A stretch of DNA of 10,936 nt from positions 1 to 10,936 of the forward strand of contig JALXCG010000794.1 of NCBI GenBank assembly GCA_026991065.1, in the 5' to 3' direction. This DNA is from JALXCG01 sp026991065 [NCBI: Gemmatimonadota bacterium]. Lineage in GTDB: Bacteria > GCA-2686955. The translations under genes and the position numbers were made by a program. Positions within the stretch are counted from its first letter, which is position 1; every line of letters starts with the position of its first letter. Under the pieces are notes generated by a model. The model had not been told where the DNA came from and did not search any database. It saw only the letters and a list, made by a program, of their open reading frames with translations. This document shows, piece by piece, positions 1,160 through 10,525 of this stretch.

Positions 1160-2428
1160 ATGGTAAGAGTTGCGACAGTCACTCCCGCCATGCTCGGGAG
1201 TGTTACCCGCTTCCTGCAGCAGGAACAGCGTCTCGCAGGCAGCCCATGGGCGGATGCCGGACGCGATTACTACGCCTGGAAGTTCTTTGGCAACCCCTGT
1301 GGACCGTCGCTGGCGCAATGCGCTTATGCTGGCACGGAGCTGATCGGCTTTCTCGGTGCCGACGCGCGGCGGCTCTGGGCCGCGCCGCACACATCGGTGG
1401 TGATGCACACCGGCGACTCCTATGTGCGCGAAGAGCATCGCCCGAGTGGCGTCTATCTGCGCTTGCTCTGGGCGCTGCACCAGGCGTGTCTCGCCGCCGG
1501 CATTCCACTCAGCTACGCGCGCCCCTCCCGCTCGCTGATCCCGCTCCTCCAGCGTTCCGGAGCGATCGACCTGGCACGGCTTCAGCCCTGGGTGCGACCG
1601 CTCTCGGGGGCCTGGGCCGGCGCCCGTCTCGGGCTCGGCCCCTGCGCTCCGGTGCGCGGGGCGCTGAACGCGCTCTCCGTGCTTTCCACCCTTCCCGCCA
1701 CCCTCATCAGCGGCGGGATCCGCATCGAACCGCTCTCCGCCTTCGGCCGGGATGCGGACCACCTTTGGCGACGCGCGCGTCCCGCGCATGGCGCCACCCT
1801 GGTCAAGGACCGCAGCTATCTGACCTGGCGCTACCTGAGCGGCCCCTGTCGCTATCAGATTCTGGGCGCGCGCCGTGGCGGGGAGTTGGTTGGATTTGTC
1901 GTTACCACCGGTTGTCGCGACCGCGCCGACACCTGTGAACTGGTGGACCTGCTGGTGGCCCCGGAAGGGGGGCGGTTCATCGCCTATCGACTGGTTGGCG
2001 AGGCGTTGCGGCGGGCGCGCAAGAGCGGCTTCGCTCGCATGCGGTGTCAACTGACTGGGAGCCTGTCGCACACTGTCTTCACGTCGCCCCGCACCCGTCC
2101 CTGCTCCGATCTCTGCGTTGCTGAGCCCTTGAAAGGCAACCAGCCTTCCGGCGGACTCAGCGCCTTGATCTCGAAGCAGGCCCGAATACGGGGCTCGAAA
2201 GCCAATGCGCGACAGGCTCCTGCCACCGCCGCATCCCGCAACGACGCGGACCCGCTGCCCTACGCGCTGCGACTGCATGGCTTCCTGGTGCGCGCCAATG
2301 AAGCCGAGGCGGTGCCCCTGCTGGCGGCTCCTCACACGGTGCGCGGCAGCCCGCCGGCCCCCCTCTATCAGGCCCTGGCCGAGCACGGCTGGCAACAGTT
2401 TCGCATCGGTGACACCGATGGTGCTTGA
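1160..2428 (+). CDS. GNAT-fold acyltransferase-like protein with an in-frame repeat insertion
   Basis: The protein is 422 residues and soluble, with no signal peptide. The N-terminal half has a segment resembling two-domain GNAT/FemAB-like transferases: YYAWKFFGNP (residues 38-47), then a strand with LIGFLGA (61-67). The second half repeats the pattern with SYLTWRYLSGP (219-229) and ELVGFVVTT (242-250), a helix, and a C-terminus with FRIGDTD (415-421). Such proteins acylate amines on sugars, peptides or small molecules, often beside polysaccharide or natural-product genes. The acceptor is unknown here. Residues about 300-355 are Ser/Arg/Pro-rich, unlike their surroundings, and are encoded by a palindromic repeat element (2058-2220). 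Removing 2058-2222 would give a continuous protein of 367 residues. Whether the inserted protein folds and works is open. The gene ends 62 bp before the flavin monooxygenase. The GNAT assignment rests on pattern resemblance only. Confidence 0.65.
   Translation: MVRVATVTPAMLGSVTRFLQQEQRLAGSPWADAGRDYYAWKFFGNPCGPSLAQCAYAGTELIGFLGADARRLWAAPHTSVVMHTGDSYVREEHRPSGVYLRLLWALHQACLAAGIPLSYARPSRSLIPLLQRSGAIDLARLQPWVRPLSGAWAGARLGLGPCAPVRGALNALSVLSTLPATLISGGIRIEPLSAFGRDADHLWRRARPAHGATLVKDRSYLTWRYLSGPCRYQILGARRGGELVGFVVTTGCRDRADTCELVDLLVAPEGGRFIAYRLVGEALRRARKSGFARMRCQLTGSLSHTVFTSPRTRPCSDLCVAEPLKGNQPSGGLSALISKQARIRGSKANARQAPATAASRNDADPLPYALRLHGFLVRANEAEAVPLLAAPHTVRGSPPAPLYQALAEHGWQQFRIGDTDGA
2058..2220. repeat. 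163-bp imperfect palindrome with 12-bp terminal inverted repeats, MITE-like
   Basis: The ends are perfect inverted repeats: GGAGCCTGTCGC at 2058-2069 and GCGACAGGCTCC at 2209-2220. Further nested pairs share the same centre near 2140: CCTGCT 2100-2105 with AGCAGG 2175-2180, GCTGAG 2120-2125 with CTCAGC 2156-2161, and AAGGC 2133-2137 with GCCTT 2143-2147 around a 5-nt loop. This nested symmetry is that of a small non-autonomous inverted-repeat element, not of coding sequence. A TG lies on both sides (2056-2057 and 2221-2222). If that is a 2-bp target duplication, element plus one copy is 165 bp, exactly 55 codons, which would explain why the host frame was kept. No transposase is encoded within it. 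The structure is seen directly; mobility is inferred. Confidence 0.75.
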
Positions 2429-2490: not shown

Positions 2491-3564
2491 ATGAAGTTCT
2501 CACTTTTTTTCGAGTTTCAGTTGCCCAACCCCACCCCGGCGCGTGAGCGCGCGCTCTACCAGGCGTGCGTCGAGCAGGCGGTGCTGGCCGACGAACTGGG
2601 TTACCACTGCATCTGGGCGGTGGAACACCACGGACTGTACGAATACTCCCACATGTCCGCGCCGGAGGTGTTTCTGGCTCACGTGGCGGCGCGCACCCGG
2701 CGCATCCGGCTGGGCCACGGAGTCACGCTGATGCCTCACCGTTACAACCATCCGATTCGCATCGCCGAGCGGGTCGCGACACTTGATATCCTCTCCGAGG
2801 GGCGGGTCAACTGGGGTTCCGGCAAGTCGGCCACCCTGGTGGAGCAGGGGGCATTCGGGGTTGAGCGCTCGCAGATGCACGATGAGTGGCGGGAAACGAT
2901 CGAAATGGTGCCGCGGATGTGGACCGAAGATGTCTTCGAGCATCACGGGCGCTATTTCGACATTCCACCCACGCGGATCGTGCCGAAGCCGGTCCAGGAT
3001 CCCCATCCGCCGATGTTTGCCGCCTGCCTAAAACCGGAGTTCGCCAGAGCGCTCGGCGAGTTGGGGATGGGAGCACTCAATCTTGCCACCTACACCGACG
3101 AGGTCCTCAAACAGCGCGTGGCGGAGTACAAAGAGGCCTGCCGGCAAGCCAAACCGGTTGGTTTCCGGGCGACCAACCATTTCGCCTGCAACCCCTCGGT
3201 ACTGGTGCTGGAAGATGACAAGAAAGCCTGTCGCTATGGGCTGCGGGGAGCCCAGTTCTTCGTCAAGGGGCTTGCCTATTACTTTGTCACCGGCGAGCGC
3301 CCCATGGGGCCGGTGCCGATGCCGGCGCAGGGGCCGGACGACGCTTTTGTGGCCAAGTTCCAGCAGCAGCGCAACGCTCCGGGTTCGACCCTGTCGACCA
3401 TCATCGGCTCGCCAAGCGCCGCGCGGGAAACGGTGCAGCGCTTTGTGGATGTGGGGCTGGATGAGATCATTCTGGTGATGCAACTGGGGACGATTCCCAA
3501 CGAGTTGGTGCTGGAGTCGATTCGCTTGTTCGGGGAAAAAGTGTTGCCCCATTTTGCCGACTGA
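2491..3564 (+). CDS. Luciferase-like (LLM class) flavin-dependent monooxygenase
   Basis: The protein is 357 residues, the usual length for a single-domain bacterial-luciferase-family TIM barrel. Family marks in order are the opening strand KFSLFFEFQ (2-10), IWAVEHHG (41-48) with the His pair at the position of the active-site His of LuxA-like proteins, and HPIRIAERVATLDILSEGR (87-105). The HHGRYFDIPP segment with a Pro-rich stretch follows (151-173). These enzymes use reduced FMN or F420 and, in most cases, O2 to oxygenate or oxidise small molecules in the cytosol. Several natural-product assembly lines carry such enzymes acting on carrier-protein-bound substrates. Here the gene lies 80 bp before an acyl carrier protein gene, so a tailoring role in the same pathway is plausible but not shown. 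The family call is secure; cofactor and substrate are not determined. Confidence 0.88.
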   Translation: MKFSLFFEFQLPNPTPARERALYQACVEQAVLADELGYHCIWAVEHHGLYEYSHMSAPEVFLAHVAARTRRIRLGHGVTLMPHRYNHPIRIAERVATLDILSEGRVNWGSGKSATLVEQGAFGVERSQMHDEWRETIEMVPRMWTEDVFEHHGRYFDIPPTRIVPKPVQDPHPPMFAACLKPEFARALGELGMGALNLATYTDEVLKQRVAEYKEACRQAKPVGFRATNHFACNPSVLVLEDDKKACRYGLRGAQFFVKGLAYYFVTGERPMGPVPMPAQGPDDAFVAKFQQQRNAPGSTLSTIIGSPSAARETVQRFVDVGLDEIILVMQLGTIPNELVLESIRLFGEKVLPHFAD

Positions 3565-3569
3565 GCCGG

Positions 3570-3596
3570 GCCGAGGAGCCTGTGACGGCGTTTTTT
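3570..3596 (+). terminator. Weak candidate intrinsic terminator between monooxygenase and carrier-protein genes
   Basis: GCCG at 3570-3573 can pair with CGGC at 3586-3589, with TTTTTT following at 3591-3596, 6 nt after the monooxygenase stop codon. The stem is only 4 bp with a 12-nt loop, so termination would be partial at best. It could instead lower read-through into the carrier-protein operon. Confidence 0.28.
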
Positions 3597-3644
3597 GCAC
3601 ACTTGTCGGGTAGATCAATGTCCTTATGAGGAAAGGTGAAGCAG

Positions 3645-3941
3645 ATGGATCGAGCACGCATCACAGAGGAGCTGAAAGAGCTGATGGTCGAAGTGTCCAC
3701 GGTCAAAGAGGAGCGCGGCAAGGCGCGCCGCGGGTCGCCCTTTTTCGAAAGCGTGGATGAGATAAAGTTGGAGACTCCGCTGGCGGAATTGGGAATGGAC
3801 TCGATCATGGTGACCGCCCTGGTGACCCGCCTGGAGGAACGCCACGAGATTGAGCTTTCACCGATGATCATGTTTGAAGTGCGCACCGTTGGGGATTTTG
3901 TCGACGCGGTGGAGCAGGCGATGAGCGAGGCGAAGGAATGA
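3645..3941 (+). CDS. Acyl carrier protein (phosphopantetheine carrier)
   Basis: This is a small acidic protein of 98 residues. It carries the phosphopantetheine attachment motif LGMDSIMV (residues 49-56) with the modifiable Ser53 at codon 3801-3803. The expected helices lie before and after it, and the late segment SPMIMFEVRTVGDFVDAVE matches the C-terminal part of PKS/NRPS-type carriers. It is longer than a fatty-acid-synthesis ACP (about 78 residues) because of a charged segment at about residues 20-40. I chose the ATG at 3645, with AAGG 8 nt upstream. A GTG at 3636 with GAGG 4 nt upstream is an alternative adding three residues. Its stop overlaps the next start as ATGA, so it is translationally coupled to the dehydrogenase, which is therefore its likely partner. 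It presumably carries the acyl group activated by the ligase two genes on. Confidence 0.9.
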   Translation: MDRARITEELKELMVEVSTVKEERGKARRGSPFFESVDEIKLETPLAELGMDSIMVTALVTRLEERHEIELSPMIMFEVRTVGDFVDAVEQAMSEAKE

Positions 3942-5113
3942 TCGACTTTGGCTTGAGTGCCGCGGAGCGTGACCTGCGGGCGCGGGTGCGGGCGTTTGCC
4001 GCGGCCGAGATCGAGCCGCGACGGGAGTTCCTGGATCGCAATGATCATTTTCCGCTGGAGATCTTCGAAGCGGCCTTCGAGGCGGGGCTGATGACCGCGC
4101 ATCTTCCCGCCGATCTGGGCGGTGGAGGCTACAGCACGGTCGATCTGGCGCTGGCGGCGGAGGAGGTGGCGTACCAGGATGCCGGCGTCGCGACCTCGCT
4201 CTTTGTCGGCATTCTGCCGACAACGCCGATCGATCTCTTCGGCACCGCGGAGCAGCGCGAGCGCTGGTTGCGCCCGCTGACTGGGGGACCCCGTTTCGCG
4301 GCGATGGCGTGGACCGAGCCCGACGGCAGCTCTTCGCTCTTCTTCCGCCCCGGGGGAACCACTGCGCAGCGGGTCGATGGCGGCTATCTGATCAATGGCA
4401 CCAAGTGCTTCATTACCAACGGATCCTACGCCGATTTCGTTCTTCTGCTGGCCTATTCCGGCCCCAAGCTGCGCGATCTCAGCGCTTTCATCGTTCCCAC
4501 CGATGCTCCCGGGGTGAGAATCACGACGCCCTATCAGAAATTGGGACAGCGGGCCTCGAATACAGCCCGGATCGAATTCGAGAATGTGCTGATCGACGAG
4601 ACCCAGCTCCTGGGCGAAGAGGGGCGCGGGGCGATGCTGGCGCTGGCCGGGTTCTGCCGCTCCCGCGCCGGTGTTTGTGCCATGGCCGCGGGTGTGGCGC
4701 AGGCGGCTCTGGACCAGGTGGTGGCGTGGGGCAACCAGCGCCGAACCGGTGATGGCCGGCCGTTGGTGCTGCAGCAGGACTACCGCTTCCGCATCGCCGA
4801 GCTGGAGACCCAGGTGGAGCTGGCGCGTCTCATGGCCTGGCGCGCCGCCTGGGAGATCGACCACGGCAAGGAGCTGCCGCGCTGGTCGAGCATGGCCAAG
4901 TTGGCCGGCGGCGGGATCGCCGCCCGGGTCACCGCGGCGGCGGTGGAGATGAAGGGTGGACACGGCTACATGGAGGATGGACGGGTGGAAAAGCTGATGC
5001 GCGACGCCAAGCTCTTCGAGATCTACGAGGGGCCGATCCCGATCCAGAAGATGCTCATCGCCCAGTACGCGACCAAGCTCCGGCGGGGGAGGAGGCGACA
5101 TTCGCATGGCTGA
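3938..5113 (+). CDS. Acyl-CoA-dehydrogenase-like flavoprotein, probably acting on a carrier-bound acyl group
   Basis: The protein is 391 residues, a normal length for the family. The N-terminal helical domain (about 1-115) is followed by the beta domain with WTEPDGSSS (125-133) in the place of the usual TEPGAGSD flavin-contact motif. The C-terminal helical domain carries KGGHGYMEDGRVEKLMRD (339-356) and IYEGPIPIQ (362-370). Glu364 is at the position of the catalytic base of medium-chain acyl-CoA dehydrogenase. The family removes two hydrogens from the alpha and beta carbons of acyl thioesters, using FAD. Standing between a carrier protein and an acyl-AMP ligase, as in PltE-type pathways that oxidise carrier-bound prolyl groups, it most likely acts on the carrier-bound substrate. 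The residues after the Glu (PIPIQ rather than TSQIQ) and the altered flavin motif suggest a divergent subgroup. It overlaps the ligase gene by 8 nt. Confidence 0.9.
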   Translation: MIDFGLSAAERDLRARVRAFAAAEIEPRREFLDRNDHFPLEIFEAAFEAGLMTAHLPADLGGGGYSTVDLALAAEEVAYQDAGVATSLFVGILPTTPIDLFGTAEQRERWLRPLTGGPRFAAMAWTEPDGSSSLFFRPGGTTAQRVDGGYLINGTKCFITNGSYADFVLLLAYSGPKLRDLSAFIVPTDAPGVRITTPYQKLGQRASNTARIEFENVLIDETQLLGEEGRGAMLALAGFCRSRAGVCAMAAGVAQAALDQVVAWGNQRRTGDGRPLVLQQDYRFRIAELETQVELARLMAWRAAWEIDHGKELPRWSSMAKLAGGGIAARVTAAAVEMKGGHGYMEDGRVEKLMRDAKLFEIYEGPIPIQKMLIAQYATKLRRGRRRHSHG

Positions 5114-6776
5114 TCCATTCCGGGCGACCCACCTGAATGAGGCCCTGCGGCAGTTGGCGGAGGAGTACGGGCAGTCGCCGATTCTGCACTTCTACGGTGA
5201 ACATGGCTGGGGCGCGCCGGTGACCTACCGGGAGCTGGAGCGCGCCGCCTTTGGTGCAACCCACACCCTGGTTGAGGCGGGGGTTGGTTGCGGCGACCGG
5301 GTGCTGCTGGCGCTGGATACGTCGCTGCAGGCGGTGGCCGCTTTCTTTGCTGCGAACCAGATCGGCGCCATTCCGGTCCTTACCGCGCCCTGGCCGCGCG
5401 GGCTCGGTGATGCCGATGGTTTTCGCCGCCGCTTGCAGGCGACACTGGCGCGGGTGCGGCCGAAGATCCTCGTTGCCCACGGGGCGCTGCTGCCCCATCT
5501 GCGCGAGCTGCCGCTGCCGCTGCTCGCCGACACTGCCCTGGCGACGGAGGCGGATCGGCCGGCGCGCGCGGACCACCGTTCCGAAATCTGTCACCTGCAA
5601 CTCACCAGCGGCAGCAGCGGAACCCCGCGCGCGGTTCGGGTGACCCATGCCGCGGCTCTGGCGAATGCCTCGGCGATCCAGGACTCCGATCACCTGGGGC
5701 CCGGCGACCGCCTGCTGCACTGGGTCCCGCTCTATCACGACATGGGGTTGCACGGCGGGCTCCTGCAGCCGCTGCTGGCGCGAATGCCGGCGTGGCTGAT
5801 GCCGCCGCGGGTCTTTCTGCAGCGGCCACAGCTCTGGCTGGAACAGATCGGTCACCTTGGCGCCACGGTGACGGTCGCCCCCAACTTCGGCTATGCCCGA
5901 ATGGCGGGGTTGATGCGGGGGCTGGCGGATGGCGCGATCGACCTGAGTTCGCTGGAGCACGCCTACAACGGCGCCGAGCCGATCGATGCCGGAGAGACCC
6001 GGGCGTTTCTTCGCGAAGGGCGCCGTTTTGGCCTCTCGCCGCGGGCGCTGGCGCCCTGCTACGGCCTCGGCGAGGCGACCCTGGCGGTGACCCTAACCCC
6101 GCGCGGCGAGGGGGTGCACTTCGACCGAATCTCGATCTCCGCGCTGCGTCGCCATCGGGCGCAGGCCGCGGCGGAGTCCGCCCCGGAGACAACCGAGATC
6201 GTTGCCTGCGGCGTGCCGGTGAGTTCCTGCCGGGTGGTGATTGAGGATGAGGCGGGCAACCCGGTTGCGGAGCGCGAAGTCGGTGAGATCGTGGTCGCCG
6301 GCGCCTCAGTCTGCGACGGCTACTTCGATCCGGAAGAGGGCGCCGGCCCCTCGGCGTTTGTCAATGGCCGCATCCGCACCGGGGATCTGGGCTATTTCGC
6401 CGCCGGGCGACTCTATGTTGTGGGACGCAAGAAAGAGGTGTTGATCGTTCGCGGCGAGAAATTCGCACCGCACGAGCTGGAGCGGGTTGCGGAGTCGATC
6501 GCCGGCATCCGCAAGGGGCGCAGCGCCTGCTTTGCGCAGCGCCGCGCCGGTGACGGGAGTGAGAGCGTGGCCATCGTCTGCGAAACGCGCGGCGCCGCCT
6601 CCGAATACCCGGCCCTGGCGCGCAAAGTACGCGGGCGGCTGAATGAGGAGTTCGGGCTCAGCGTGGCGGTGTCGATGGTCCCCGCCGGCTGGGTGCCGAC
6701 CACCTCCAGCGGCAAGTTGCGGCGGACGGCGGCGCGGGAGAAGCTGGAGCGGGAGTCGGCGGCGGCGCAGCGATGA
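5106..6776 (+). CDS. Fatty-acyl-AMP ligase-like adenylate-forming enzyme
   Basis: The protein is 556 residues with the ANL-superfamily motifs in order. They are the ATP phosphate-binding loop LTSGSSGTPR (166-175), WVPLYHDMGL (206-215, a form typical of fatty-acyl-AMP ligases), YGLGEAT (319-325), RTGDLGY (424-430), the hinge GRKKEVLIVRG (440-450) and TSSGKLRR (533-540) with the catalytic Lys537. The segment between about 335 and 380 also follows the fatty-acyl-AMP-ligase pattern. It would activate a carboxylic acid with ATP to an acyl-AMP and pass it to a phosphopantetheine thiol, most simply that of the carrier protein encoded two genes upstream. A strong ribosome binding site (GGAGGAGG, 5088-5095) lies inside the end of the dehydrogenase gene. 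Chain length or amino-acid specificity cannot be read. Its stop is 39 bp from the convergent gene's stop. Confidence 0.9.
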   Translation: MADPFRATHLNEALRQLAEEYGQSPILHFYGEHGWGAPVTYRELERAAFGATHTLVEAGVGCGDRVLLALDTSLQAVAAFFAANQIGAIPVLTAPWPRGLGDADGFRRRLQATLARVRPKILVAHGALLPHLRELPLPLLADTALATEADRPARADHRSEICHLQLTSGSSGTPRAVRVTHAAALANASAIQDSDHLGPGDRLLHWVPLYHDMGLHGGLLQPLLARMPAWLMPPRVFLQRPQLWLEQIGHLGATVTVAPNFGYARMAGLMRGLADGAIDLSSLEHAYNGAEPIDAGETRAFLREGRRFGLSPRALAPCYGLGEATLAVTLTPRGEGVHFDRISISALRRHRAQAAAESAPETTEIVACGVPVSSCRVVIEDEAGNPVAEREVGEIVVAGASVCDGYFDPEEGAGPSAFVNGRIRTGDLGYFAAGRLYVVGRKKEVLIVRGEKFAPHELERVAESIAGIRKGRSACFAQRRAGDGSESVAIVCETRGAASEYPALARKVRGRLNEEFGLSVAVSMVPAGWVPTTSSGKLRRTAAREKLERESAAAQR

Positions 6777-6812
6777 GCATCGTGGCGAGCGTCGCGGGGT
6801 GCGTCGCGGGGC
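6777..6812. repeat. Degenerate tandem 12-mer in the convergent spacer
   Basis: GCGTCGCGGGG occurs at 6789-6799 and again at 6801-6811, a 12-bp period. The 12 nt before them (6777-6788) match the unit at 8 of 12 positions. The block fills most of the 39-bp spacer between the two converging operons. No T-tract terminator is visible on either strand here. Confidence 0.55.
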
Positions 6813-6815
6813 GCG

Positions 6816-8135
6816 TTACGCGGACTGAAAAAGCGCTTCGATGATCCGCTGCGAAGCACCGGTGCGGGATTCGACAAACGCGCGGGCGCGGCGCCCAAGG
6901 GCCTCGCAGCGGGCGCGGTTGCGGGCCTGCGCCAGGTCCAGGAGCGAATTCACCGCCGCTACCCCCGGGACCGGCCGGGCGATCCCCTCTTCCTGCAGAT
7001 CCAGCGCCTCATCCAGAATCGCGCTGTGCGGCCCGAAAGCGACTGCCGCGCCATGCGCCGCCGGCTCGATCACCGAATGCACGCCGGCACCGAAACCGCC
7101 GCCGACATAAGCGACCTGCCCCCAGGCGTAAAGCTCCGGCAGAATGCCGACCCGGTCGACCAGGAGCACCCGTTCGCCCGCGTAGTGGCGGCGCGCGGAG
7201 TAGCGGCAGACCGAAATCCGCTGGGCCTGGAAGCGGGCCTCCAGCGCCGCGATTGCCGCCGGGTCGGTTTCGTGGGGGACATAGATGAAGCGCAGCCCCT
7301 CGCGGTCCAGGGCCGCATCGCCACCGGCCAGACGCTCGCGCCAGCCGGCGAAGAGCACCTCATCATCGCTCGGCAGCACACTGCCGAAAACGATCACCCG
7401 GTGCGCGCCGAAAAGATCGGGGGGCAGAATCGCGGCCTTGGCGGCGGCGCTCCGCTCGAGGTCGCGGGCGCGCTCCCAGACCTGGTCGAACCGGGTATCG
7501 CCGCTGATCTCGATCCGTTCCGGCGGCAGCAGCCGCGCCCAGCGCTCGCGCAGCCGCGGCGAGCCGGTGAAGACCCGGTCGAAAAGAGAGAAGAGCGCGC
7601 GATTGGCGGCCCGGGCGGCAGGGTGGAGGCGCAGCGAACCAGCGTGCAGATTGGCGTTGATGAGCGTCGTGCGAACCCCCGCCCGGCGCGCCGCCAGCAG
7701 ATGGTTGGGCCAGATGTCGTGACGGGTGATCAGATAGTCGTCCGGGGCGATGCGGGCAAAGAAAGCGCGCGCCGCCCAGGGCCAGTCGAGCGGGTGGTAG
7801 CAGGCGGCGTCGAAGAGTGCGCTCTCCGCCTCGCGCTCGAAGATGGTCGGCGAAAAAAAAGTCTGCAGCACAATCAGGCGCTGGCGGTCGAGCCGCCGCA
7901 GCAGCGGCCGCAACTGCTCGAACTCCCCGGCCGATGCCGCGTGGCAGACCACAACGCGGCGGCCATCGTGGCGCAGCTCGGTCAGTTTCGCCGCCGCCGC
8001 CGCCAGCGTGTGGGCGCCGGGCCGGCGCCGGCGGGCCCATTTGGCGCGCACCGCAGGCACTGCCCAGGCGCCTGCCATGGCGACCGGCAGAAGGGCATTG
8101 TAGGCGCCGATCCAGGTCGCATCGCGCGGTTTCAC
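6816..8135 (-). CDS. waaA: GT30 glycosyltransferase, Kdo transferase (WaaA/KdtA) homologue
   Basis: The protein is 439 residues. A hydrophobic N-terminal segment (about 8-30) would anchor it to the inner membrane. HAASAGEFEQL (65-75) contains the family's catalytic Glu, here Glu71. LITRHDIWPNHL (135-146) corresponds to the METELWPNL region of the E. coli enzyme but is divergent. The C-terminal GT-B half has YVPHETD (285-291) and VGGGFGAGVHSVIEPAAHG (344-362), the nucleotide-sugar binding region. WaaA transfers Kdo from CMP-Kdo to lipid IVA on the cytoplasmic face. The start is a GTG sharing a GTGA overlap with the phosphatase stop. Its operon partners make a CMP-nonulosonate rather than obviously CMP-Kdo, so the donor sugar is uncertain. 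The fold assignment is firm; Kdo as donor is not certain. A run of eight T on the coding strand falls at 7853-7860. Confidence 0.88.
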   Translation of the reverse strand: MKPRDATWIGAYNALLPVAMAGAWAVPAVRAKWARRRRPGAHTLAAAAAKLTELRHDGRRVVVCHAASAGEFEQLRPLLRRLDRQRLIVLQTFFSPTIFEREAESALFDAACYHPLDWPWAARAFFARIAPDDYLITRHDIWPNHLLAARRAGVRTTLINANLHAGSLRLHPAARAANRALFSLFDRVFTGSPRLRERWARLLPPERIEISGDTRFDQVWERARDLERSAAAKAAILPPDLFGAHRVIVFGSVLPSDDEVLFAGWRERLAGGDAALDREGLRFIYVPHETDPAAIAALEARFQAQRISVCRYSARRHYAGERVLLVDRVGILPELYAWGQVAYVGGGFGAGVHSVIEPAAHGAAVAFGPHSAILDEALDLQEEGIARPVPGVAAVNSLLDLAQARNRARCEALGRRARAFVESRTGASQRIIEALFQSA

Positions 8136-8704
8136 CGGGCGTCGGGGCCGCCGCCCGCGGCGCCTGCCGCCGGCGCCGCCAGCAGCAGCTCGGCCAGGTC
8201 CCGGAACGCCCCCGCGCCGCCACTGCGCCGGGTGACCCAGGCGCCCGGCAGGCGCTCCAAAATCGGGCTGTTGGGCACCAGAACCGGAAACCCGACCGCT
8301 TCCAACAGCGGCAGGTCGTTGACATCGTCACCGATGTAGGCAACCTGCGCCAACGTCACTCCCCGCGCCGCGGCGATCGCCCGCATCGTCGCCAACTTGT
8401 CGCGCACCCCCAGGTGCACTTCGGTGATCCGCAGCTTCTCCGCCCGCCGGGCGACGATCGGCGTGTTCTCCGAAGTCAGAATCACCGTCTCCAGCCCGGC
8501 GTCGCGCAGCAGTGCCGCCCCCATGCCGTCGTATGTGGAGAACCCCTTCATCAATTCGCCGTGCTCGCTGTAATACATGCGCGCATCGGTCCACACCCCG
8601 TCGATATCGGTCCCGACCAGGCGCACCGCCTGTGCCCGCCGGCGCAACTCCGCGCTGCCCCAACTCCAGCTCGGTCCGTTGCCATCCCCCCGCGCGGCGC
8701 TCAT
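8132..8704 (-). CDS. HAD phosphatase, KdsC-like; probably nonulosonate (KDN-type) 9-phosphate phosphatase
   Basis: The protein is 190 residues, a cap-less (C0) HAD phosphatase. The motifs are the nucleophile DIDGVWTD (33-40), motif II TSEN (77-80), Lys103 and the metal site GDDVND (125-130). The C-terminal SGGAGAFRDL follows the KdsC-family pattern. KdsC removes phosphate from Kdo-8-phosphate. The related KDN-9-phosphate phosphatase of Bacteroides thetaiotaomicron uses, as I recall, Glu56 and Lys67 for specificity in the string TGEKTEIVRRRAEKL. Here TSENTPIVARRAEKL places Glu79 and Lys90 at those positions, where E. coli KdsC has TGRK instead. With the synthase and cytidylyltransferase genes directly upstream, a nonulosonate 9-phosphate substrate is favoured, with KdsC the alternative. 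The first 28 residues are an extension of unknown role. The start shares an ATGA overlap (8701-8704) with the synthase stop. Confidence 0.85.
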   Translation of the reverse strand: MSAARGDGNGPSWSWGSAELRRRAQAVRLVGTDIDGVWTDARMYYSEHGELMKGFSTYDGMGAALLRDAGLETVILTSENTPIVARRAEKLRITEVHLGVRDKLATMRAIAAARGVTLAQVAYIGDDVNDLPLLEAVGFPVLVPNSPILERLPGAWVTRRSGGAGAFRDLAELLLAAPAAGAAGGGPDAR

Positions 8705-9747
8705 TGCAGATCTTCCCAGGTCAGAATCCGGTCCGCCTGCAGATCCCGGCTCGCCACCCGCCCCACCACCTCGGCCAGGCGTGCCGGCGAGATCCCGGTT
8801 CCCGGCCCCTTGGTGGTCAAGAGTCCGCGCTCGATCCGCGTCCCGCGGGCGATCGGTGCCGTCGTCACAATGCTCTTCGCCAGTTTCTCCCGCACCGGCA
8901 CCTCGCCCTCTTGCAGGCGCTTCTCGCCGCTGCCCAGCGCCTCCTCCACATGGCGGATGTCGCGCACCATCTTGGCGAACCCGTGCGGTTCCAGCGAGGC
9001 GGCGTGATCGCCCCCCTTCATCGTGCGATCGAGAGTGAAGTGGCGCTCCACGATCTTTGCCCCGAGGGCCGCCGCCACTGTCGAAATGGCGATCCCCAGC
9101 TCATGGCCGGAGTAGCCGATCACCGCCTCCGGGAACTCCCGCAGATAGGTCTGGATCACCCGCAGGTCGATGCCCGAAAAAGGGCTCGGATAGGTCGACG
9201 TGCACTGCAGGATGCCCACCGCCGGCGCCGTCTCGCGCACCTCCGCATAGGCCTGCCGCACCTCCTCCATGGTCGCCATGCCGGTGGAGAGGACCAGCGG
9301 CCGCCCCTTGCCCGCCGCGTGGCGCAGCAGCGGCAGATTGGTCAGGTCAGCCGACGCCATCTTGAAAAAGGGGATCCCCAGCGCGTCGAGAAAATCGATG
9401 CTCTCCTCATCCCAGCCGGAAGCGATGAAATCCACCCCGAGGTTGTCCGCCAGCGCCTTCAGGTCGTGGTAGACCGCTTCGGAGAGTTCCAGCGCCTCCT
9501 TGTGCTCGCCGTAGGTTTCGCCGAAGCTGTGGCGATTCCGGTAGGGCATCGCCAGCCCCTCGGCGGTGAGAATGCGGTTCAGCGAACGCTTCTGGAACTT
9601 CACCGCATCGGCGCGGGCATCCGCCGCCGCGGCGATCATCTCGGCGGCGATCGCCGGATCCCCCTGGTGGTTAATGCCGATCTCTGCGATCACATAGACC
9701 GGCGCGTCGTCGCCGATGGTGCGGGTGGAAGTAGAAAAACTGGACAT
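8701..9747 (-). CDS. neuB: Nonulosonic acid synthase (NeuB/NANS family), likely 9-phosphate type
   Basis: The protein is 348 residues. It has the NeuB TIM barrel (about 15-280) followed by an antifreeze-like SAF domain (about 285-348). Barrel motifs are AEIGINHQGD (21-30), DAVKFQK (47-53), FFKMASAD (127-134), LQCTSTYPSP (180-189), GYSGHELG (211-218) and ERHFTLD (234-240). The family condenses phosphoenolpyruvate with a hexose derivative to make nonulosonic acids. The segment PYRNRHSFGETYGEHKEALE (69-88) closely follows human NANS (PYTSKHSWGKTYGEHKRHLE). NANS uses ManNAc-6-phosphate or mannose-6-phosphate; bacterial NeuB of the N. meningitidis type, which uses free ManNAc, lacks this segment. 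Together with the next gene, a phosphatase, this suggests a phosphorylated substrate and a 9-phosphate product. The start has AGGA a few nt upstream. It lies 43 bp after the cytidylyltransferase gene. Confidence 0.93.
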   Translation of the reverse strand: MSSFSTSTRTIGDDAPVYVIAEIGINHQGDPAIAAEMIAAAADARADAVKFQKRSLNRILTAEGLAMPYRNRHSFGETYGEHKEALELSEAVYHDLKALADNLGVDFIASGWDEESIDFLDALGIPFFKMASADLTNLPLLRHAAGKGRPLVLSTGMATMEEVRQAYAEVRETAPAVGILQCTSTYPSPFSGIDLRVIQTYLREFPEAVIGYSGHELGIAISTVAAALGAKIVERHFTLDRTMKGGDHAASLEPHGFAKMVRDIRHVEEALGSGEKRLQEGEVPVREKLAKSIVTTAPIARGTRIERGLLTTKGPGTGISPARLAEVVGRVASRDLQADRILTWEDLQ

Positions 9748-9790
9748 GGTTCCTGGGGTATGGGCATAAGGCTGCAGCGGTGAACTGAAA

Positions 9791-10525
9791 CTACCGATCC
9801 GCGAGGCTTCGGGCGATCGTTTCCAGTGCCGCCCAGTCGGTTGGGGTGTCGATTTCAGGCGCGAACGGCTCGGAATGTATCACATGACCGATCTTTCCCC
9901 CGAGTCGGTTGCCCACCCGCTCGAAATGGGCGCGGGTGAACACGTAGATCGAGCCGGTTTCGACATAGCGGATCTCCTCCGGGCGCAGATCCTGGCGCCG
10001 CGGGCGGTGCAGATAATCATACTCGGCACGGGCCTCGCCCGATTCCTCCAGGCGCCAAAAAAACCGGTGCGTCGGGGCGACCGAAAGCAGCGAATCGAAC
10101 CCCCCGGCGAGCAGTCGTTCCAGCGCCGCGTCCACCGCCCCGGCCGGTCGCAGCGGACTGGTGGGTTGCAGCAGCACCAGCAGATCCGGCACCGGACAGG
10201 GCGCCGCTTCCGCCTCGCGTCCCTGGGTCGCCCGCAGGAAATGGGCGATCGCGCTCTCGGTGCTCGCCTCATCTCCCGCCAGCGCCGCCGGCCGCCGCAG
10301 CACCGAGGCCCCCGCTGCCGCCGCCACCGCCGCAATCTCATCATCATCGGTCGACACCACCACCGAGTTCACCAACCGCGCCGCGCGCGCCGCCGCGATC
10401 GAATGCACCACCAGCGGTTGCCCCAAAAAGAGCCGCAGATTCTTGCGCGGAATCCCCTTGCTGCCGCCACGCGCGGGGATCAACGCCGCCACCTGCCGCC
10501 CCGGTTCGCTCCGCTCCCTGCTCAT
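9791..10525 (-). CDS. neuA: CMP-nonulosonate cytidylyltransferase (NeuA family)
   Basis: The protein is 244 residues, a single cytidylyltransferase domain. It opens with the nucleotide-binding signature [15 protein letters not shown] (16-30), followed by [11 protein letters not shown] (55-65), LLQPTSPLR (118-126), [10 protein letters not shown] (187-196) and EIDTPTDW (224-231) near the end. These are the marks of the CMP-N-acylneuraminate synthetase branch rather than of KdsB. It would activate the free nonulosonate made by the synthase and phosphatase with CTP, giving the CMP-sugar donor. AGAGGA lies 6 nt before the ATG, and the ATG overlaps the stop of the transporter gene as ATGA (10522-10525). 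It lacks the fused C-terminal esterase or phosphatase domain that some NeuA proteins carry, consistent with a separate phosphatase gene in the operon. Exact sugar (Neu5Ac, KDN, legionaminate) is not determined by sequence alone. Confidence 0.92.

Follow-up and report, generated by a model that had tools for sequence, protein, structure and literature searches.

A palindromic MITE-like element probably read through in frame within a GNAT-like acetyltransferase gene

Introduction

A GNAT-like acetyltransferase gene contains, within its reading frame, a palindrome resembling a miniature inverted-repeat transposable element (MITE). This raises the question of whether a small mobile element has lengthened a protein, and whether the added residues serve the enzyme, burden it or disable it. 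We addressed this question in the window, the whole stretch of 10,936 nucleotides that was analysed, together with the draft genome to which it belongs (G000; 4.14 Mb in 902 contigs, 83.8% complete). Comparable cases are described in the accessible parts of earlier reports, where Rickettsia palindromic elements (RPE), palindromes of 105-146 bp (about 150 according to another review), are dispersed repeats that have an open frame and occur as in-frame fusions within genes of conserved proteins (PMC10969869, PMC2229807). Open frames fused in frame into genes are described there for RPE, ERIC and Correia-type repeats alike (PMC10969869, PMC2229807, PMC2759123).

Table 1. Features of the GNAT-like gene and its inserted element, in window coordinates
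Feature	Position	Strand	Evidence
GNAT-like acetyltransferase gene, 422 aa, insert at codons 300-354	1160..2428	+	open frame, Pfam, homologues
C-terminal portion downstream of the insert, with in-frame GF..W..GDTD motif	2223..2425	+	motif, codon usage
Palindromic MITE-like element, in-frame copy, 163 bp	2058..2220	+	arms, genome copies, fold
Left terminal inverted repeat, perfect over its first 12 bp	2058..2079	+	arm pairing; family end GGAGCCTGTCGC
Right terminal inverted repeat	2199..2220	+	arm pairing
TG, left copy of probable 2-bp target repeat	2056..2057	.	copy flanks
TG, right copy of probable 2-bp target repeat	2221..2222	.	copy flanks
Left inner arm	2086..2109	+	arm pairing
Right inner arm	2171..2194	+	arm pairing
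Central hairpin CTTGAAAGGCAACCAGCCTTCC, common to repeats of Gammaproteobacteria	2128..2149	+	pattern matches

The reading frame of the GNAT-like gene runs through the element

The frame starts with an ATG at 1160 and stays open to 2425, followed by a stop codon at 2426-2428. Upstream of the insert, PF00583 (GNAT) matches residues 221-295 of 422 (3.1e-10; profile positions 24-97 of 116), and NCBIfam gave no match for the protein. The element of 163 bp and the repeated TG add up to 165 bp, corresponding to exactly 55 codons. Both the uninterrupted frame and the TG on either side had been proposed in a first-pass annotation, and both hold, with the GNAT family match before the element and a conserved motif after it.

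Homologues of the protein in distant genomes lack the insert. The set comprised 20 loci that yielded 17 reading frames, 16 of them after removal of a duplicate, and some share a genome. A profile of these 16 sequences aligned to window residues 36-307 only, with 125.7 bits, and scored the 68-residue C-terminal fragment alone at -0.4 bits, below several of 2000 shuffles. Because the profile finds no match there, the evidence for the C-terminal part consists of a motif and of codon usage. The motif, GF...W..GD[STR][DE], was framed after the homologue alignment had been seen; it is present in 10 of the 16 homologues, appears after the insert in the read-through frame only (0/5 other frames), and arose in 14 of 200,000 shuffled versions of the C-terminal fragment. 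Codon usage on both sides of the insert likewise favours the read-through frame. Together, these features of the sequence support in-frame read-through of the element in a GNAT-like gene, and Pfam, homologues and motif agree in placing it, in the manner of RPE, inside a conserved protein gene.

The homologue alignment that the first-pass annotation had called for, covering residues about 300-355, found the 55 residues missing from the homologues; a protein segment conserved in unrelated genera around a repeat with no other copy, the contrary outcome named there, is not what emerged. In G001, the sole other genome of the family that was searched, the N-terminal part of the protein had no match at E 1e-6, so the genomes searched offer no close empty site, and no second genome with the insertion was found among them. 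Behind the GNAT-like gene, the window (2491-10525) carries genes for a luciferase-like monooxygenase, an acyl carrier protein, an acyl-CoA dehydrogenase and an AMP-binding enzyme, and further on, on the opposite strand, family matches to Kdo transferase, HAD hydrolase (weak), NeuB and cytidylyltransferase.

The palindrome belongs to a dispersed MITE-like family

Pairing of the arms and comparison of the fold with shuffled sequences bear out the earlier description of an imperfect 163-bp palindrome with nested arms and one centre. The outer arms (22 nt, 86% complementary) and the inner arms (24 nt, 75% complementary) share a common centre near 2139, and the strand folds at -84.5 kcal/mol, compared to -57.8 (sd 4.3) for shuffled sequences, none of which among 200 reached as low. 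The ends are given as CTAGGAGCCTGTCGC, and the central hairpin can also be written TTGAAAGGCAACCAGCCTTCC. No family reached its gathering score in an Rfam scan of the window. At 163 bp the element is short and leaves no room for a transposase, and its 22-nt terminal inverted repeats are 86% complementary, as in bacterial MITEs.

A search of G000 with the element gave 130 first-look candidates, 40 of which were scored, the window's copy included. These are copies of 134-175 bp, and the other 39 are 87-97% identical to the window copy; the same table holds 77 matches when partial matches to the other arm are counted too. With at most 2 mismatches allowed, the end GGAGCCTGTCGCAC was counted 89 times on one strand of G000 and 92 times on the other, compared to 21 and 22 times for a control. 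Sixty stretches of G000 together with the window contain 50 long matches to the element. Among 60 genomes searched, only two have an element match, namely G000 and G001 (MAG ARS67, deposited as Gemmatimonadetes) of the same family, in which 13 places of 86 candidates were scored at 81-86% identity. The palindrome is a member of a dispersed MITE-like family, having many copies (40 scored places; 50 long matches), and the suggestion that it is a small mobile element gains from the copies found in both genomes. Comparison with plasmids and phages by blastn at E 1e-3 revealed no similarity.

Solo element ends of 12-14 bp, which consist of TA or CA followed by GGAGCCTGTCGC and enclose unrelated sequence, occur at L059:1241, L089:4142, L090:5574, L094:4291, L098:5126 and other places. 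Judged by eye, several of them lie a few bases from gene ends.

Copies prefer CTAG-like sites, mostly outside genes

The flanks were counted in 44 of the 50 long matches, namely those that have flanks and measure 160-166 bp, some of which are degraded. The bases preceding the element are mostly C, T and A (38, 31 and 32 copies, respectively), and those following it T, A and G (32, 25 and 33 copies). The flanking dinucleotides are identical in 20 of the 44 copies and differ in 24; 5000 shuffles gave 12.4 identical pairs on average and never more than 21. Among the 17 copies without TA on either side, seven have identical dinucleotides, including the TG/TG of the window. We read these flanks as a 2-bp duplication within a CTAG-like target that has partly decayed; an empty/filled site pair proving the duplication was not found.

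Location was classified with a home-made gene caller, which uses codon usage and no homology, on contigs from which the copies had been removed. The 41 copies classified measure 155-170 bp and have 200 bp on either side; 20 of them are intergenic, 11 coincide with stop codons and 10 fall in genes. Classed in the same way, all TA sites fall largely in genes (4537, with 731 between genes and 104 at stops), and CTAG sites are distributed as 19 in genes, 31 between and 22 at stops. Five of the ten copies called as in genes (L066, L073, L082, L088 and L104:3508) score as stop-codon sites in a stop-boundary test, one (L064) lies upstream of a LysR match, and three more (L074, L075:2088 and L104:1666) are doubtful, so that the window copy is the sole convincing case within a gene among the 41. 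A frequent location inside genes, as in RPE, is thus not seen here, with 10/41 called in genes and the window alone clear.

A coding-like TAG stop falls exactly at the element boundary in 15 of 42 copies, two of which have it on both sides; counted by boundary, there are 20 stops at 92 boundaries, one of them TAA. Elsewhere, 25 of 71 CTAG sites and 144 of 5445 TA sites are coding-like TAG stops. A mechanism that targets stop codons was rejected, since the 15 of 42 copies compare with 25 of 71 CTAG sites and the preference for CTAG suffices; it also accounts for much of the rarity in genes. The accessible part of PMC3119063 discusses MITEs without an intact partner and does not name stop codons as targets. 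At L060:4575 and L069:4108, copies sit between convergent coding-like frames, and both TAG stops coincide exactly with the ends of the element.

Several further candidates for copies within genes were set aside. The codon-usage test first flagged three copies with an equal frame on both sides: the window, L075:558 and L081:5605. The open frame at L075:558 has no Pfam match, and that at L081:5605 scores poorly in codon usage. Pfam was also scanned for ten open frames spanning eight other copies, with no match for seven of these frames, and the minus strand of L071 gave a weak DUF4185 match below the cut-off; in L064 (LysR) and L051 (DUF455), the Pfam matches start after the element, and these copies are read as upstream of genes. 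The copy at L075:558-720 adjoins a stretch that resembles, by eye, the end of the ATPase-like gene that this contig carries at 912-2090.

Origin of the insertion and fate of the protein

Very probably, a MITE-like element inserted into a CTG/TG site within the GNAT-like gene and lengthened rather than broke it. A non-autonomous palindromic element, whose usual sites are CTAG-like and lie between genes or at gene ends, would have been moved by a transposase acting in trans, and its landing in the CTG/TG site would have duplicated 2 bp. With a total of 165 bp and a family consensus free of stops in that frame, the gene would have gained 55 codons instead of being interrupted. The fusion would then be translated, and the protein may tolerate the insert because of its position close to the C-terminus and beyond the main GNAT match.

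Two readings would dispense with such an insertion. In the view that the palindrome is a structural RNA or a terminator-type element and not mobile, the strong fold and the number of copies at gene ends would be expected, and 19 cells show a change in one member of a pair matched by a change in the other, compared to 6.5 in shuffles (maximum 13 of 300). However, the pairs with a matched change number 11, within the 8-13 of slid structures (their cells 9-13), and the matched changes in the arms lie mostly near the element ends; the support for a conserved structure is thus weak. Given in addition that the dispersed copies are conserved end to end with TA-type flanks and that no Rfam family reached its gathering score in the window, we consider this reading improbable. 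An assembly artefact, in which the repeat joined two pieces into one gene, could be suspected in a draft MAG where several copies and many related repeats lie at contig ends; nevertheless, the two flanks belong to one gene family, share the reading frame and carry a matching TG, which leaves an artefact very hard to credit.

If the element did insert into the gene, its consequence for the enzyme has to be weighed. The first-pass annotation had offered domestication as a protein insert, in which the 55 residues would be kept as helpful to the enzyme, and the open frame and the still coding-like C-terminal part would agree with this. Of the 34 copies that measure 163 bp, however, 31 keep open the frame used in the window, and 25 have three open frames, the commonest state; among 2000 mononucleotide shuffles of the element, 227 have three open frames and 61 more than three. 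The peptide (for example GNQPSGGLSALISK) is the default translation of the element family. Moreover, seven positions of the window copy depart from the consensus of the other copies, and each of these differences changes the amino acid; as about three quarters would be expected by chance, this is weak evidence against domestication. With seven differences, it is about as near to the consensus as many other copies are (range 1-81 over 44 copies), none of the homologues found carries the 55 residues, and the insertion is seen in one genome only. These comparisons do not support the domestication claim, and we give it very little credence. A single-sequence structure model of the protein was uninformative (mean pLDDT 35.4).

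Alternatively, the enzyme may have lost its activity through the insertion, which would make the gene an early pseudogene. The insert precedes the last segment conserved in homologues, and there is no sign of selection since insertion; against this, the frame, the C-terminus and the stop have all been preserved, the insert is located downstream of the PF00583 match, and a Rickettsia Gmk with a similar insert is described as active, with changed substrate affinity, in the accessible part of the report (PMC2229807). Loss of function is a serious but rather unlikely outcome. For the lengthened gene that we favour, the likeliest effect of the insert is neutral to mildly harmful, not adaptive.

Comparison with known palindromic repeats

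By description, the family is similar to the RPE in the accessible accounts of them, being a dispersed palindromic repeat with an open frame and one in-frame gene insertion. They differ in that 1 of 41 classified copies here is convincingly in a gene, and in the lineage and the CTAG-type target. The ERIC/RU-1 and Correia/NEMIS MITEs, again likened by description, share terminal inverted repeats, TA at the termini, a mostly intergenic location and open frames sometimes fused to genes, as far as the available part of PMC2759123 describes them; for the window family, no transposase partner was found within PF13358 and PF01609. RUP of pneumococcus, a MITE of IS630-Spn1, is also described, in the part available, as non-autonomous with TA at its ends, but it has stops in all six frames, and G000 and G001 lack the IS630-type DDE_3 match.

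By analogy, the window case would join an already known kind, that of the RPE, ERIC and Correia in-frame insertions. It adds a case from a poorly sampled bacterial lineage in which a small mobile repeat may have lengthened a protein with the frame kept. Copies within genes may be rare here because the target, CTAG, is for the most part found outside genes or on stop codons.

The central hairpin is common to repeats of Gammaproteobacteria

A search of contigs with the pattern YTGAAAGGCAACCAGCCTTYC gave at least 95 stretches, which group by title, among the matches listed, into 21 from ARS67 and 74 gammaproteobacterial ones, the latter from Marinobacter, Shewanella, Endozoicomonas, Zhongshania and others. 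Among the matches listed (L140-L234), the hairpin sits in gammaproteobacterial palindromic repeats that are larger and end differently.

Letters beyond those searched are also shared among the matches listed, where copies within one group are not independent. CGTTG upstream and TGC directly after the hairpin occur, respectively, in 29 and 30 of 30 repeats of the Marinobacter BWSM group, 8 and 8 of 9 in other Marinobacter, 5 and 5 of 5 in the Zhongshania group, and 13 and 13 of 14 in the Endozoicomonas group, where random places give about 2%. The corresponding counts are 0 and 0 of 13 in Shewanella, and 0 and 1 of 16 in ARS67, which has variant letters there. Similarly, among the matches listed, GCGYY follows downstream in 8/9 other Marinobacter, 4/5 of the Zhongshania group and 10/14 of the Endozoicomonas group, and in 0/30 Marinobacter BWSM, 0/13 Shewanella and 1/16 ARS67, against a background of 6%.

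The gammaproteobacterial repeats have TA-type flanks and ends unlike those of the window family. Among the matches listed, 26 of the 75 rows outside ARS67 measure 259-286 bp with a right arm of 76-89 nt; in the remainder, only the inner arms were caught, or the match ran past the ends or lay at a contig edge. The repeats of Marinobacter, Endozoicomonas, Zhongshania and Shewanella are thus similar to the window family in the central hairpin, the TA-type flanks and a right arm of ~80 nt, but differ in length (about 260-285 bp where both ends were caught), in a longer left arm and in their terminal repeats, and those of Shewanella also lack the conserved letters beside the hairpin.

The distribution of the 19-base core across bacteria is patchy: of 386 genomes drawn from across the domain, only G000 (39 times) and G001 (26 times) contain it, and of 369 genomes from the class to which Marinobacter xestospongiae belongs, 2 do, one of them being that of M. 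xestospongiae itself. The core letters, GAAAGGCAACCAGCCTT, were not found in the literature searched and may be printed elsewhere. Our reading of the sequences is that the hairpin repeats share descent, with exchange of ends. Somewhat more boldly, and as a tentative proposal that falls short of even chances, they may form a superfamily in which one central hairpin and a ~80-nt right arm are kept in this lineage and in Gammaproteobacteria, the terminal repeats being exchanged for those of different YTAR-targeting transposons and the hairpin being the functional, selected and horizontally spread part. A hairpin common to unrelated bacteria makes it testable whether a conserved functional core is moved by different transposases.

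Candidate mobilizing transposases

The search for an autonomous partner covered the families PF13358 and PF01609, in draft genomes that may miss a partner. PF13358 (IS630-type DDE_3), the transposase that an IS630-derived MITE would have in its genome, was found in neither of the drafts G000 and G001 (0/2). PF01609 has one match in G000 (L240), where the element ends are absent, and two in G001 (L239 and L245), where only 3-mismatch look-alikes of the ends occur, without TA alongside. The YTAR-like flanks of the window's family presumably fit IS5-type targets.

The repeats of Shewanella have what we take to be an IS5-like end, situated close to a PF01609 match in L247. Endozoicomonas elysicola has a different repeat type; there, end pairs that face inward span up to 278 bp, and the next are 20.8 kb apart. 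In Marinobacter xestospongiae, a 1590-bp stretch (L238:1273-2862) has inverted ends CTAGGAGTCTGCGCGGCAGAAG around a PF01609 match; the open frame is 463 aa long, and the ends are similar in style to those of the MITEs.
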